Of a DNA stretch of 64,000 nt, positions 42,766 through 47,835 are shown piece by piece. How positions within the stretch are numbered: the stretch's first letter is position 1; every line of letters starts with the position of its first letter. A model generated the notes under the pieces. That model saw only the letters and a program-made list of their open reading frames with translations. It searched no databases and was not told the origin of the DNA. This DNA comes from Lentisphaeria bacterium. GTDB taxonomy: Bacteria; Verrucomicrobiota; Lentisphaeria; Victivallales; Victivallaceae. Position numbers and translations under genes: made by a program. The stretch covers positions 1 through 64,000 of the forward strand of contig JAFTUS010000065.1 of assembly GCA_017466125.1 (NCBI GenBank), read 5' to 3'.

Positions 42766-45348
42766 TTATTTCGCCGCATCCTGCGGCAGTTCAAGGAGAC
42801 AGCGGAAACCCGCATCACGGGTCTGGCATACTCCGTAGTTCATACACTCATCTCCGAGGGCGAAAAGCGGCGTCCGGAACGAACTGCCCGCCAGAACAGG
42901 GAGCGGCCCCTGCGGCCCGTCGGTCATAACGATCTCACGGACATTGCCGGAGAGATTGCGTACACCGTAAACAGACTCATCTTTCGGAAAAAGATTGCGG
43001 GGCGCACCGAAGGGATATTTGGCGGCATCGGGGTGATGGGCCGTCAGCGAAGCGGTATGATCGGTCTCATTTCCCCAGACATAGTTGCGTTCGTAAAAAC
43101 CGGCGGCGGCATGCAGCCACTCATCCCGGGTCGGCAGACGTCCTTTCAGCCCCAGTTTTTTGCCCTGATATTCACAGAAAGCCTGCGCTGCGGCGGGCGA
43201 TATGCCGACAACGGGCAGCTCGCCCCAGCGTTTGGCATCAAGACCTTTTTTGGCATCCCAGAGGCTCTTTCCGCCGACTTTCGGCGTAAACTTCTGCCGC
43301 TCTGCGGGGGGGAGGGATTTCAAAAACGGGATGTAATCTTTGAAACGGACTTCATATCTGCCGATGAAGAACGAGGGCAGTTGTTTGGAGGAAATGCGCC
43401 GGAACGAACCGGTATCTTTGGCAGAGAAACGCTGTCCGTCAAGCACCAGTGCATATCCGGCGGGGATCGCTGCCGGAGGTTCGGGCGTCAGCAGAAGTTC
43501 CTGTGCCAGTTCGATCGCAAAGGGGATGAAGACCGGGGACTGATTTTTCCCGGTGATGCGGAGACGGTAATCCCCCACCGGCAGAATAAAACCGTATCTG
43601 CCGCCGGAGTACGAGAGATTTTTGCAGAGAACCGGCTCCTGCGTCAGACTTTCGGCATACTCTCCTCTGGCATTGAAAATGGAGATGTTCCACTCTTTCC
43701 CGTCGGGAATACGGAGGGCGAGCATCCCGGTTTCGTTGCGGATGAGTTCCACCCAGGTTTTCAGTTGCGGCTCTTTTTCCGCCGCCAGAGCAAAAAGTTC
43801 CTTCCAGCGGGCGGTGATGTTGTTTAAAATACTGTCGGAGGTGGAAGGTACGTTGAATTTCACCGTCAATGCCAGCATATCGTGAAAGATTTTCGCCGTC
43901 ATTGCGACCACTTCGGCGGAAGCCGCCTTGTCTTCGGGCAGACGGGAGAGAAAGTCCAGAGCCGCCGAGTAATCGTTTATCATTTCATACATCTGACGGC
44001 GCATCTGATAGAGGGTGTGCTTCTTCTGCGTACGGTCAGTGGAATTCTGAAGCAGAGCGAGTTGTTTTTTCAACTGGTTCGCCTTGAGATTTCCCTGCAC
44101 ACTGCAATCCTGCGCCAGTGTCCAGAGGGAGTTGAGCCGTGAGCGTTCCAGCGACGAGGAGTATCCCCAGTAGATGCACCAGGTGAACACCGCCGCCAGC
44201 AGCGTTACCGGGATCAGCGGGTGACGGCGGATCAATTTCAAAAATTTGTAGACCGGCGTCGGGGAGTACGCTTTGACCGGGTAGTTATCCAGATAGTTCT
44301 TCACATCGTTCAGCAGTTCTTCCACCGAAGTATACCGTTCCTGCGGTTCAAAATTCATGGCTTTCAGACAGACCGCTTCCAGTTCGCGCGGAACGACCGT
44401 ATTGCGCCATGCGGCTTTGCGGGGAGACGGTACTTTTCCGGCACAGATAAAAGCGGGGTGTTTATCCACGGATACCCCTTCCGGCACCGGGGAGGAACGC
44501 CATGATAAAATACAGTACAAAATCGCGCCGAGCGCGTAAATATCGGTACTTACGGAGGGGATCTCCTGTTTTCCGGAGAGCAGTTCCGGGGCCATAAACG
44601 CCCATGTGCCGCCCAGTTTCTTGTCATCCCGCGGCTCCTGCTGAAGCTGACACTCCAGATCGAGAGCCATTTTGCTTTCATCGCCCTCTTCATCCAGTTC
44701 CGGAATATAGCGTGCCATGCCCCAGTCCATGACGAACGTTTCACCGTAGTTACCGATCATCAGATTGCCGGGTTTCAGATCGCAGTGCAAAATGCCGTGA
44801 TGGTGGGCGAAAGATACGCCGTGACAGCACCCCAAAAAGATATTGAGCAGTTGCCGCAGAGTGTAGCGGCGGCGGTAATCGGCGGTGTTTTCACGGAGAT
44901 TTTTCAGGATGACCTGTAACGTTTCACCGGCGACCTTTTTCATGGTGAAATAGACTCCCACGTCCTCAAACACCCCCAGCCGGTGGACCGGCACGATGTT
45001 GGGGTGGTCGATTTGTGCGGTGGTGCGCGCCTCACGGATGAAGTCTTCGATACGGTCGGCGTGGTTGCGGTACTGCGGACGCAGAAGTTTCAGGGCGACC
45101 TGCCGGTTCAGCCCCGGTTCGTAGCCGCCGAAAACAGTCCCCATGCCGCCGACACCGATGGCGTAAAGGGACTTGTAATCGCTGATGTTCTCCCCGGAAG
45201 AGAGCCCCAGCCCGGCACGCAGTTCTTCCGTCGTCAGACTGCTGGGCTTTTCGGAACTGCCGTACAGCAGCGTTTGCGATACATCCGTATGTTCCGCATG
45301 GGTGCGGGAGCGGGTTTGAAAATGATCCGTAATGAATTGATCGCTCAA
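42766..45348 (-). CDS. Transmembrane Ser/Thr protein kinase fused to a formylglycine-generating-enzyme-like (SUMF1) domain
   Basis: An 860-residue Hanks-type kinase and sensor. Kinase (about 58-355): glycine loop IGVGGMGTV (64-72), VALK Lys 87, catalytic loop HCDLKPGN (188-195; Cys replaces Arg of HRD), DWG (208-210) in place of DFG, MAPE (252-255). One membrane helix at about 379-397 would put the rest in the periplasm: a helical region (to about 550), a beta-sandwich ('LPVGDYRLRITGK') and a SUMF1/FGE-sulfatase-like domain (about 640-855; RLPTRDEWLHAA, NLSGNVREIV, DAGFRC). The FGE catalytic cysteine pair is not conserved, so the domain is more likely a binding or sensing module. The start is TTG, chosen because AGGAG precedes it and no ATG exists before the glycine loop. 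It follows the coiled-coil gene by 15 bp. Confidence 0.9.
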   Translation of the reverse strand: MSDQFITDHFQTRSRTHAEHTDVSQTLLYGSSEKPSSLTTEELRAGLGLSSGENISDYKSLYAIGVGGMGTVFGGYEPGLNRQVALKLLRPQYRNHADRIEDFIREARTTAQIDHPNIVPVHRLGVFEDVGVYFTMKKVAGETLQVILKNLRENTADYRRRYTLRQLLNIFLGCCHGVSFAHHHGILHCDLKPGNLMIGNYGETFVMDWGMARYIPELDEEGDESKMALDLECQLQQEPRDDKKLGGTWAFMAPELLSGKQEIPSVSTDIYALGAILYCILSWRSSPVPEGVSVDKHPAFICAGKVPSPRKAAWRNTVVPRELEAVCLKAMNFEPQERYTSVEELLNDVKNYLDNYPVKAYSPTPVYKFLKLIRRHPLIPVTLLAAVFTWCIYWGYSSSLERSRLNSLWTLAQDCSVQGNLKANQLKKQLALLQNSTDRTQKKHTLYQMRRQMYEMINDYSAALDFLSRLPEDKAASAEVVAMTAKIFHDMLALTVKFNVPSTSDSILNNITARWKELFALAAEKEPQLKTWVELIRNETGMLALRIPDGKEWNISIFNARGEYAESLTQEPVLCKNLSYSGGRYGFILPVGDYRLRITGKNQSPVFIPFAIELAQELLLTPEPPAAIPAGYALVLDGQRFSAKDTGSFRRISSKQLPSFFIGRYEVRFKDYIPFLKSLPPAERQKFTPKVGGKSLWDAKKGLDAKRWGELPVVGISPAAAQAFCEYQGKKLGLKGRLPTRDEWLHAAAGFYERNYVWGNETDHTASLTAHHPDAAKYPFGAPRNLFPKDESVYGVRNLSGNVREIVMTDGPQGPLPVLAGSSFRTPLFALGDECMNYGVCQTRDAGFRCLLELPQDAAK

Positions 45349-45363
45349 TGTCTGTTTCTCCTG

Positions 45364-47214
45364 TCAACGGCCTTTGAGATCAAGTTCCTGGACTTTCTGA
45401 TACAGTTTACCCATTTCGCGGGCAAATACGGAATAATATTTTTCATTGGCTTTTTTGACCACGGGGATCGCAGTCATTGCTTTATCCCAGGAGAAATCTT
45501 TGGTAAAAAGCATGCAGCGGGCATTTTCGCGGCTGCTGAAAACAGGGGATTCCGCAGCGATGACCACCCCGGCAAATTCGCCCTCGCGGGTCAGAACAAG
45601 ATCTCCGGGAGAAGCCTTCAGCTCCGTGGAAGAGCGGCCGTTGCGGATGTAAAGCACATCGCCGCCGGAGGCAAAATCCAGCGAACAGCGGTCGCCCAGC
45701 GGCGCAGACTCCTTGCCGCTGGAATTGGTTTTGAAGAGGTAGAGATTTTCCACGCCCCGCTTGCGGATGGCATCGGCGTAGATCGTTTTAAGCGGTTTGC
45801 GTCCGGCAAGTTTGACTTCGAGAGCCGCCACACGGGGGTCGGCCTTGCCGACGTAGAGCGGAGTTGTGATCGTAACGGGTTCCTTCCCGCCGGGGAGGGC
45901 CGCACGGTAAGAAAGTTTTTTGATCTCACGGAAATTAAGCGGAGATTGAACAGTACCACTCATATTGCCGAAACTGGTCAGCATGACCGTCTTTCCGCCG
46001 AGTTCCACCAGAGGAATACAGTAAAGTGCATCGGACTGCTGATCGACCACGAGGCGGTTTTCCAGAATGGAGAGCCGCAGGAGTGCGGCGGCATCGGCGT
46101 AACAGGAAAGCACATCGGCTTTGGTACGGACATTGACGCCGACATTTTCCAGCATTTTGGTCGTGACGGCATACTGTTTTTCGACCGACGCGGCCTTCAC
46201 ACGGGCTTCAATCTCTTTGCGTTCCAAATCCCGGACGGTCTTCTGGGCGGCGGCGAGTTCCTGACGGCTTTCGGAGCGGTCATGCACCGCTTTTTTGAGG
46301 ACGGAACGGGTTGCGGCAAGCTGCTGGGTAAGACGCTGGATCTCCAGTTCCCGCCGGGCGGCAAGCTGGCGGTTTTTGCTATTGTCATCCCGTTCAGCGG
46401 CGAACGCCTGTTCGGTGGTGCTGAGTCTGCCGCGGACAAAGGAGAGGTTGCTTTCCAGTTGTCTGTTTTCATTGACTGCCTGATCGCCCCGTTTCATCGC
46501 GGCGGCGAGGGCATTCTGCAAATTGGTGATGGCTTGCCTCTGCACAGCGGCATCGGCACGGCTTTTCTGCAGTTCTTCCGAAACGGACTTCAACCGTTTA
46601 TCGCGGTCGCGGAGTTCCTCTTCATTGATGGCGAGGGTCTCTTTGGTGCGGCGCACCTCTTCGGCGGCGCGGTTCAGCCGTTCCCGGATGACAGAACCCT
46701 TCTGGCGGGCGTAACTGACGGCGTCAATATTCTCTTTGAGTTCTTTACGCAGATCGGCGGTCAACTCCTTGGAGTCTTTGAGCCGCATTTCGGCAAGCTG
46801 AAGTTGGATCTGTGCTTCGGTAAGTTGTTTTTTCAGTTCAGCCGGAGTCATTTTGGCGGTCGTTCTGCGGCTGTTTTTGGCAAGAAGTTCCATCTGTTCC
46901 GCCTTGACTTTTGCGGCGGCGAGTTCTTTGGCGAGACGTTCAATCTCCTTTTCCCGTTCTGCGCTGAAACCCTGTTTTCGCTGGGTTTCGCGCAGACGGC
47001 GGCGGAGTTCTTCCAACTGGGCCTCACGGATGCGTAATTCATTGAGGATCAGTGCAGTAGTGGGGGCATCCAAACCGATGCCGGGTGCGCCGATGGTTCC
47101 GCCGCCGCCCTGCCCGTCGGCTCCGTTGAAGCCGGCGGGGACCATGCCCGTAAGCATGGAGAGCATGGAGGAGACCAGAAAGTCGCAGATGACGATAAGT
47201 ACGGCTCTGTTCAC
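45364..47214 (-). CDS. Membrane-anchored coiled-coil protein with MotB/ExbD-like N-terminal helix
   Basis: A 616-residue protein I cannot name. One N-terminal membrane helix (about 3-24) with a buried Asp at position 11 followed by Phe-Leu and small residues (ICDFLVSSMLSML), resembling the proton-binding helix of MotB and ExbD. Then a Gly-rich linker (28-48), about 300 residues of coiled coil (about 55-365) and a C-terminal domain of about 250 residues with beta-strand patterns ('ALYCIPLVELGGKTVMLTSFG', 'LVLTREGEFAGVVIAAE') that faintly recalls trypsin-like barrels but without an identifiable triad. No peptidoglycan-binding OmpA motif is present. GTG start overlapping the preceding stop (GTGA), with GAGG upstream. 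It sits between the MotA/TolQ-like gene and the kinase gene. Confidence 0.75.
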   Translation of the reverse strand: MNRAVLIVICDFLVSSMLSMLTGMVPAGFNGADGQGGGGTIGAPGIGLDAPTTALILNELRIREAQLEELRRRLRETQRKQGFSAEREKEIERLAKELAAAKVKAEQMELLAKNSRRTTAKMTPAELKKQLTEAQIQLQLAEMRLKDSKELTADLRKELKENIDAVSYARQKGSVIRERLNRAAEEVRRTKETLAINEEELRDRDKRLKSVSEELQKSRADAAVQRQAITNLQNALAAAMKRGDQAVNENRQLESNLSFVRGRLSTTEQAFAAERDDNSKNRQLAARRELEIQRLTQQLAATRSVLKKAVHDRSESRQELAAAQKTVRDLERKEIEARVKAASVEKQYAVTTKMLENVGVNVRTKADVLSCYADAAALLRLSILENRLVVDQQSDALYCIPLVELGGKTVMLTSFGNMSGTVQSPLNFREIKKLSYRAALPGGKEPVTITTPLYVGKADPRVAALEVKLAGRKPLKTIYADAIRKRGVENLYLFKTNSSGKESAPLGDRCSLDFASGGDVLYIRNGRSSTELKASPGDLVLTREGEFAGVVIAAESPVFSSRENARCMLFTKDFSWDKAMTAIPVVKKANEKYYSVFAREMGKLYQKVQELDLKGR

Positions 47215-47759
47215 TTGGCAGCCTCACTGTTTTCATTTCCGGCAAGCAGTTCCCGGCGCAGGGGATAGAGCAAAATCAACCGCAGGATCAGACTGAAAAT
47301 AATACCGATCAGGGTCGAAGAATAGGCGATCAAACGGCTGTTCTGGGGAGAGAAGGTCATCACCAGAAAGGCGGATACCGTACCGAAAAGTCCGACGTAG
47401 AGCGGCACGTCAAAGAAAATATCGGCATTTTCCAGTTTCTGAAGACGGAGTTTGAAACTTTCCGCACTGTTTTTGATATTTGCCGTAACCATCCACGCCA
47501 GCGCAAAAGCGAAGAACTGCGCGCAGGTGATGATGCTGAAAAGCAGCATGGAGATACGCCCGAAAAACTCATCTCTGGAAGCGAGACTTTCCGGAGAATT
47601 TGCCGCAACTTTGCCCAGAGCCTCTGTTCCGCTCGAACCGACAAAGAGATTTTTAACAGCACCGCCCGCAGAGAACTGGTGGTTCATCAGCAAAACAAAG
47701 GCAACGCCGAGGATCGCAAGGATAAGAAAGATCAACGTATTTTTTCCGGATTGTTTCAT
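47211..47759 (-). CDS. Four-helix membrane protein resembling MotA/TolQ/ExbB proton-channel subunits
   Basis: A 182-residue inner-membrane protein with helices at about 8-25, 71-92, 118-136 and 143-165. Helix 3 contains VPLYVGLFGTVSAF, close to the P-x-x-G-L-L-G-T-V signature of the MotA/TolQ/ExbB family, and helix 4 contains YSSTLIGIIF with a Thr where TolQ and ExbB have their channel Thr ('ATAIGL'). The cytoplasmic loop between helices 2 and 3 is short (about 25 residues). The family assignment is inference from these motifs. ATG at 47759 is used because AAAGGA precedes it; an upstream TTG has no ribosome-binding site. It overlaps the coiled-coil gene by 4 bp and has a strong promoter, heading the operon. 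Confidence 0.65.
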   Translation of the reverse strand: MKQSGKNTLIFLILAILGVAFVLLMNHQFSAGGAVKNLFVGSSGTEALGKVAANSPESLASRDEFFGRISMLLFSIITCAQFFAFALAWMVTANIKNSAESFKLRLQKLENADIFFDVPLYVGLFGTVSAFLVMTFSPQNSRLIAYSSTLIGIIFSLILRLILLYPLRRELLAGNENSEAAK

Positions 47760-47807: not shown

Positions 47808-47835
47808 ATAATACTCCACTTGGCGAAATAGTCAA
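47808..47835 (-). promoter_or_regulatory. Promoter of the stator-like/kinase operon
   Basis: Minus strand TTGACT (47830-47835), 16 bp, TATTAT (47808-47813), about 50 bp before the ATG at 47759; one of the best matches to the sigma-70 consensus in the window. Confidence 0.65.

Follow-up and report, generated by a model that had tools for sequence, protein, structure and literature searches.

A gene pair widespread in Verrucomicrobiota that may form an ion-driven membrane motor with a periplasmic shaft, linked to a transmembrane kinase in one lineage

To our knowledge, the ion-driven 5:2 motors described so far are few, namely those of the flagellar, Ton, Tol, gliding/type IX, Agl and Zorya systems. 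The membrane helix of MotB carries the motif ADF. In TolQR, residue D23 of TolR is in contact with T145 and T178, two TolQ residues that make up a polar ring and a putative proton path (PMC12583513, PMC12215075). The 5:2 motor GldLM has no clear similarity in sequence to MotAB, and its dimer builds a long shaft in the periplasm (PMC9389320); PorK, the outer-membrane ring partner of the GldLM/PorLM motor, uses a repurposed FGE fold for docking (PMC12421860). Here, we analyzed a stretch of 64,000 nt from a Lentisphaeria bacterium (the window), which contains a locus of three genes, A, B and C, that the initial annotation had read as a possible stator-like complex tied to a kinase. A literature search for the A-B pair, in which subscription papers and preprints were thinly covered, found no description of it.

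Gene A (47211..47759, minus strand, ATG start at 47759) encodes a putative MotA/TolQ-like ring subunit of 182 aa, gene B (45364..47214, minus strand, GTG start at 47214) a putative MotB/ExbD-like axle of 616 aa, and gene C (42766..45348, minus strand, TTG start at 45348) a Ser/Thr kinase of 860 aa. B overlaps A by 4 nt and C begins 15 nt after B, and the three genes are one tight minus-strand operon. The open reading frames, coordinates and motifs of three tightly packed genes had thus been given correctly. The same description had placed all three under one strong promoter; a promoter-like site, TTGACT-16-TATTAT, is indeed present upstream of A (47808..47835, minus strand) and matches the consensus at 10/12 positions, but it is suggestive at most rather than strong, since the scan gave 5 sites versus 2.4 expected.

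To define the distribution of the pair, we surveyed 388 Verrucomicrobiota genomes from 198 genera and compared the lists of genomes with A and with the B tip domain by hand. A occurs in 126/388 genomes and 56/198 genera, the B tip domain in 126/388 genomes, and both together in 125/388, while two genomes have one alone. Specifically, G118 has A alone, on a contig that ends soon after A and on which the start of B follows A (L172), and G389 has B alone in a genome that is 76% complete. Both genes are absent from several families within the same order. Counting the genome of the window itself, 40 of 61 close relatives have a homologue of A, and in the cultured Victivallis vadensis DSM 14823 the A gene is 62% identical. 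Scanning genome contigs with A gave five loci, V. vadensis included, and scanning them with B alone gave nothing. B lies behind A at a spacing of -4 to +31 nt in 38/38 Victivallis-side loci with sequence past the start of B; nearly every distant locus has the same order, the genes being apart in G353 and G347. Because the pair is kept across 56 genera and has invariant residues at positions named beforehand, A-B is a real unit, beyond chance. The neighbors of the pair look like housekeeping genes, e.g. ABC-F and peptide deformylase, and no third gene was found to be conserved beside it outside the Victivallis side.

A had been described as a four-helix protein with the motif PLYVGLFGTV and a TolQ-like threonine in the last helix, which agrees with what we found: hydrophobic helices span residues 8-26, 69-87, 118-136 and 149-167, the motif occupies residues 119-128, and T149 begins the fourth helix. 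Residues 119-150 (47310..47405, minus strand) make up a pore-type hairpin, PLYxGLFGTV...IAYSSTL, which is kept in 79 homologues and which hhalign aligns with the GLFGTV...TTxxG hairpin of MotA/ExbB proteins. Position 127 (T127 codon, 47379-47381, minus strand) is T/S in 79/79 sequences. The invariance of position 149 (T149 codon, 47313-47315, minus strand), which had been put forward as a check, is partial, with T in 68/79 sequences and N in 11/79, the latter all from one clade or family. Residues Q81, L120, Y121, G123, A145, Y146 and G152 are without any change over the 79 sequences, and position 160 is R/K in 78/79 and H in one. In the AF2 model of A (pLDDT 84), T127 and T149 are about equidistant from the turn that joins helices 3 and 4 and hence at similar depth, and both lie on the most conserved face of their helices (moment p = 0.07 and 0.05, respectively). 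Additionally, position 149 of A changes together with position 16 of B: T149 accompanies S/A16 in 67/67 cases and N149 accompanies T/N16 in 10/11. This covariation would fit a contact between A and B; shared ancestry is an equal explanation, since N149 is confined to one clade.

In most distant families, the A hairpin makes up the C-terminal portion of a larger protein, ~520-600 aa long with six predicted helices and reaching ~820 aa in two or three. These fused forms contain a ~300-residue region between the first two helices, and their extra N-terminal region is probably periplasmic. The extra region has no Pfam match (L136, L147, L151, L155 and other distant loci). The extra domains from two distant groups align with each other at 69% in hhalign, so that one domain may be common to both, and a comparison revealed no similarity (0.1%) between the extra domain and the periplasmic part of C.

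We then compared A with the MotA/TolQ/ExbB family, the fold that the initial annotation had proposed. Neither A nor B matches Pfam MotA_ExbB or ExbD; A has no PF01618 (MotA_ExbB) match at E <= 1, and this match is absent from the 25 Pfam families listed for 38 relatives. NCBIfam profiles gave nothing relevant for A, and sequence searches of the PDB with A and with the B tip gave no useful match. Profile comparison by hhalign against pooled MotA/ExbB proteins of the host genome and relatives scored 43-57% (P 1e-4 to 2.5e-4), with an exact register of GLFGTV on GLxGTV and TLIG on TxxG, and four unrelated membrane families used as controls scored <= 0.5%. Against single MotA/ExbB subfamilies A scored 1-26%, compared with 46-99.6% for accepted subfamilies among themselves. 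When the A model was searched with Foldseek against 350,542 PDB chains, the best six matches were all TolQ, and MotA, PomA and ExbB were within the top 14, although all were non-significant (E >= 0.37, TM-scores ~0.2-0.3). TolQ/ExbB/MotA are the sole sensible profile and fold neighbors of A; given the weak hhalign scores and Foldseek E values, common descent of A with MotA/ExbB is likely but unproven, and membership of A in that family is suggested. Positions 127 and 149 of A correspond to TolQ T145 and T178, and the A family has the pore hairpin with its GLxGT and TxxG threonines (T or S at 127, T or N at 149).

The host genome encodes four other MotA/ExbB-family proteins that match PF01618 (G000 C1:13352, C59:32632, C39:7320 and C125:5007; loci L082, L088, L093 and L101), as well as canonical ExbD genes, so A-B is an additional system. 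Among the four is a ~195-aa MotA/ExbB subfamily (GPMLGLMGTLIPMGPAL...IAFATTVVG), which is also present in relatives and is the best single-subfamily match of A, still a weak one.

B contains a single membrane helix (residues 4-22) followed by a predicted coiled coil of about 300 residues, as the initial annotation had outlined. The helix carries Asp11 (codon 47182..47184, minus strand) within MNRAVLIVICDFLVSSML, a putative ion-carrying acid whose proposed invariance was borne out: it is D in 78/78 homologues, and most other helix residues vary. Similarity of B to ExbD, which had also been anticipated, was not detectable in a profile comparison of the helix, as expected because only about 20 residues were compared. 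Residues 58-360 (46135..47043, minus strand) show heptad periodicity (z = 4.7; 0/300 shuffles as high) and include 1 Pro. Since a straight coiled coil of 300 residues would extend for ~45 nm, and an ordinary periplasm is not that wide, the shaft must be broken or folded back.

The coiled coil is followed by 256 residues of folded domain, which had been left as an unknown domain and can now be assigned. AF2 confidently modelled residues 355-616 (45367..46152, minus strand; pLDDT 94, pTM 0.91, 65 sequences) with a trypsin/HtrA-like beta-barrel fold, and Foldseek matched the model to the IgA1-protease trypsin-like domain, DegP, DegQ and HtrA with E values from 5e-6 and probability 1.00. TM-scores of only 0.4-0.5 mark it as a divergent version of this fold. 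Unlike HtrA/DegP/trypsin-like proteases, the B tip has no PDZ domain and no recognized His/Asp/Ser triad: group alignments revealed no conserved triad-like set, with triad-equivalent positions placed by sequence motif rather than by superposition. Near relatives mostly have Glu at the Ser-equivalent position, and only part of the distant group has candidate His and Ser residues; some distant members may have protease activity. Matches of the B tip to Hfq (E 0.2) and of B to RNase HII, WEMBL and SMC were rejected as chance or generic coiled coil. In line with the earlier view that the locus lacks both a peptidoglycan-binding domain and TonB/TolA, Pfam matched neither an ExbD/TolR domain nor an OmpA-like peptidoglycan-binding domain in B, which has the HtrA-like fold instead, and no TonB or TolA was recognized near the pair.

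C is a transmembrane kinase with an FGE-like domain, as had been predicted. It consists of a Pkinase domain (residues 59-346, E = 2e-30), one membrane helix (residues 378-396) and a periplasmic region with an FGE-sulfatase domain (residues 652-809, E = 9e-20) that also gives a weak GldK match. The Hanks-type signature (Gly-rich loop, Lys, Glu, HxDLKPxN and DxG) is complete, and the catalytic residues K87, E106, D190, N195 and D208 are invariant, in 34/34 homologues. The intact kinase domain, single membrane helix and extracytoplasmic domain are shared with PknB/PknD-type kinases, from which C differs in its FGE-like extracytoplasmic domain and its operon with A-B. The genes of all three proteins had been expected to stay adjacent; this holds nearly always for A and B, but C adjoins B in 34 of the 38 Victivallis-side loci that have room for it and in 0/37 distant loci. 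Moreover, C is dispensable for A-B, since it is shortened in L174 (537 aa, without the FGE part) and was not found in L049, L061, L064 and L072. The host genome has 19 Pkinase matches (V. vadensis has 13), so a chance kinase neighbor in one genome would mean little; the repeated linkage of C to B across many genera does not look accidental. Thus, of the stator-like complex tied to a kinase, the pair stands and the kinase as a core component does not, since most of the phylum has the pair without it: the kinase is an add-on outside the A-B core, linked on the Victivallis side only. A second Ser/Thr kinase gene lies on this contig just past the window end (G000 C34:65692-66456), ~20 kb from gene C.

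These features can be set against the described motors. Like TolQ-TolR and ExbB-ExbD, which supply the best fold and profile matches of A, the pair comprises two neighboring genes, one for a protein of several helices that has the GLxGTV and TxxG threonines and one for a single-helix partner with an N-terminal transmembrane Asp; unlike them, A is far smaller in the cytoplasm and has no significant family match, and the pair has no recognized TonB or TolA nearby. With the MotA-MotB stator it shares the four helices of A in the order expected for MotA and an Asp-Phe motif (CDF) in the B helix, whereas A is without the torque-generating cytoplasmic domain and B without the OmpA-like domain that binds peptidoglycan. 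GldLM is the best precedent, as a motor with a long shaft and no clear sequence similarity. Its PorK/GldK partner and C share an FGE-like domain, an intriguing but unproven parallel; here the domain sits on an inner-membrane kinase, GldL-GldM/PorL-PorM have no sequence link to A or B, and no type IX secretion gene was recognized at the A-B-C locus. ZorA-ZorB is likewise a motor-like membrane pair with a long extension, which is cytoplasmic on ZorA and would here be periplasmic on B.

We consider it somewhat probable that A-B is an ion-driven motor pair on the TolQR/ExbBD/GldLM plan, with a periplasmic shaft, an HtrA-like tip and a kinase link in one lineage. This reading is built on residue placement and gene pairing, not on significant homology, and a point against it is that A does not have the large cytoplasmic helical domain of TolQ/MotA. 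In this motor, A would form a ring around a B axle in the inner membrane, probably with five A around two B by analogy with the known systems. Ions, most likely protons, would come in from the periplasmic side between A helices 3 and 4, reach the polar ring of T127 and T149, bind Asp11 of B and exit to the cytoplasm, each ion cycle turning ring and axle relative to each other; this path and the rotation are deduced from conserved residues and their placement. The coiled coil of B, of predicted length and straightness, would carry the motion through the periplasm to the tip, which, with no conserved protease triad, more likely grips or senses an outer-membrane or cell-wall partner than cuts, and may thus serve for docking. 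In Victivallis and relatives, our guess is that C probably regulates the motor or informs the cytoplasm of its state. On the broader proposal of a phylum-wide, undescribed class of rotary motor, with a coiled-coil axle, a protease-dead HtrA-like tip and kinase gating or reporting in one lineage, we are evenly divided. If true, a further motor class would be present in about a third of the sampled Verrucomicrobiota, including the gut species Victivallis vadensis, and the engine would be used more widely; A would be an unusually small ring protein for testing the minimal needs of this engine; a way would open into how the envelope works mechanically in a large phylum that has been little studied; and the kinase link would connect envelope mechanics with signalling in the cytoplasm.

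Alternatively, A-B could be a static membrane complex without ion flow, such as a sensor or docking platform across the periplasm, which we regard as unlikely while giving it real weight. Asp11 would then pair with the basic residue at A160 or with polar positions 127/149 and hold the complex together, and an envelope ligand bound by the HtrA-like tip would signal to the kinase or to the fused domain of A. The near-constant basic residue at A160 suits such a complex, as do a tip fold often used for peptide binding, an intact kinase and the statistically insecure homology of A to MotA/ExbB. However, A160 lies ~11 residues from T149 toward the cytoplasmic end, whereas the expected depth of D11 is that of 127/149; the GLxGT and TxxG pair, placed as in TolQ, exceeds the needs of a salt bridge; and most lineages are without an adjoining kinase. 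It is improbable, in our estimate, that the pair is a divergent ExbBD/TolQR that powers outer-membrane uptake, or else constriction, by way of a TonB- or TolA-like partner encoded elsewhere: the coiled coil and HtrA-like tip of B replace the ExbD/TolR periplasmic domain, no third gene was found to be conserved beyond the Victivallis side, and the same genomes have separate canonical ExbB/ExbD sets, even though the predicted topology and pore residues are the same and several ExbB/ExbD-type sets per genome are common.

We give very little credence to a phage-defence operon related to Zorya (through its motor) or Kiwa (through KwaA). Weak KwaA matches in 10/39 A homologues (best 8e-7) and the resemblance of the kinase to PD-T4-6 and MADS kinases speak for it, yet the kinase-domain matches are generic, and the housekeeping-type neighbors and phylum-wide conservation argue otherwise. 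Zorya itself was rejected, as PADLOC gave no ZorA or ZorB profile match; so was Kiwa, with no KwaB at the locus and with a KwaA-like protein of locus L205 showing 0.6% profile similarity to A and neither of its two motifs. That protein belongs to an apparent KwaA-KwaB (Kiwa) pair in a distant Verrucomicrobiota genome (G165, L205 988-2411), in which the second gene is KwaB-sized. Separately, a 364-aa MotA/ExbB-like protein at L104 (G026 C1:552199-552378) has a long coiled-coil-like tail after its last helix and is somewhat ZorA-like.
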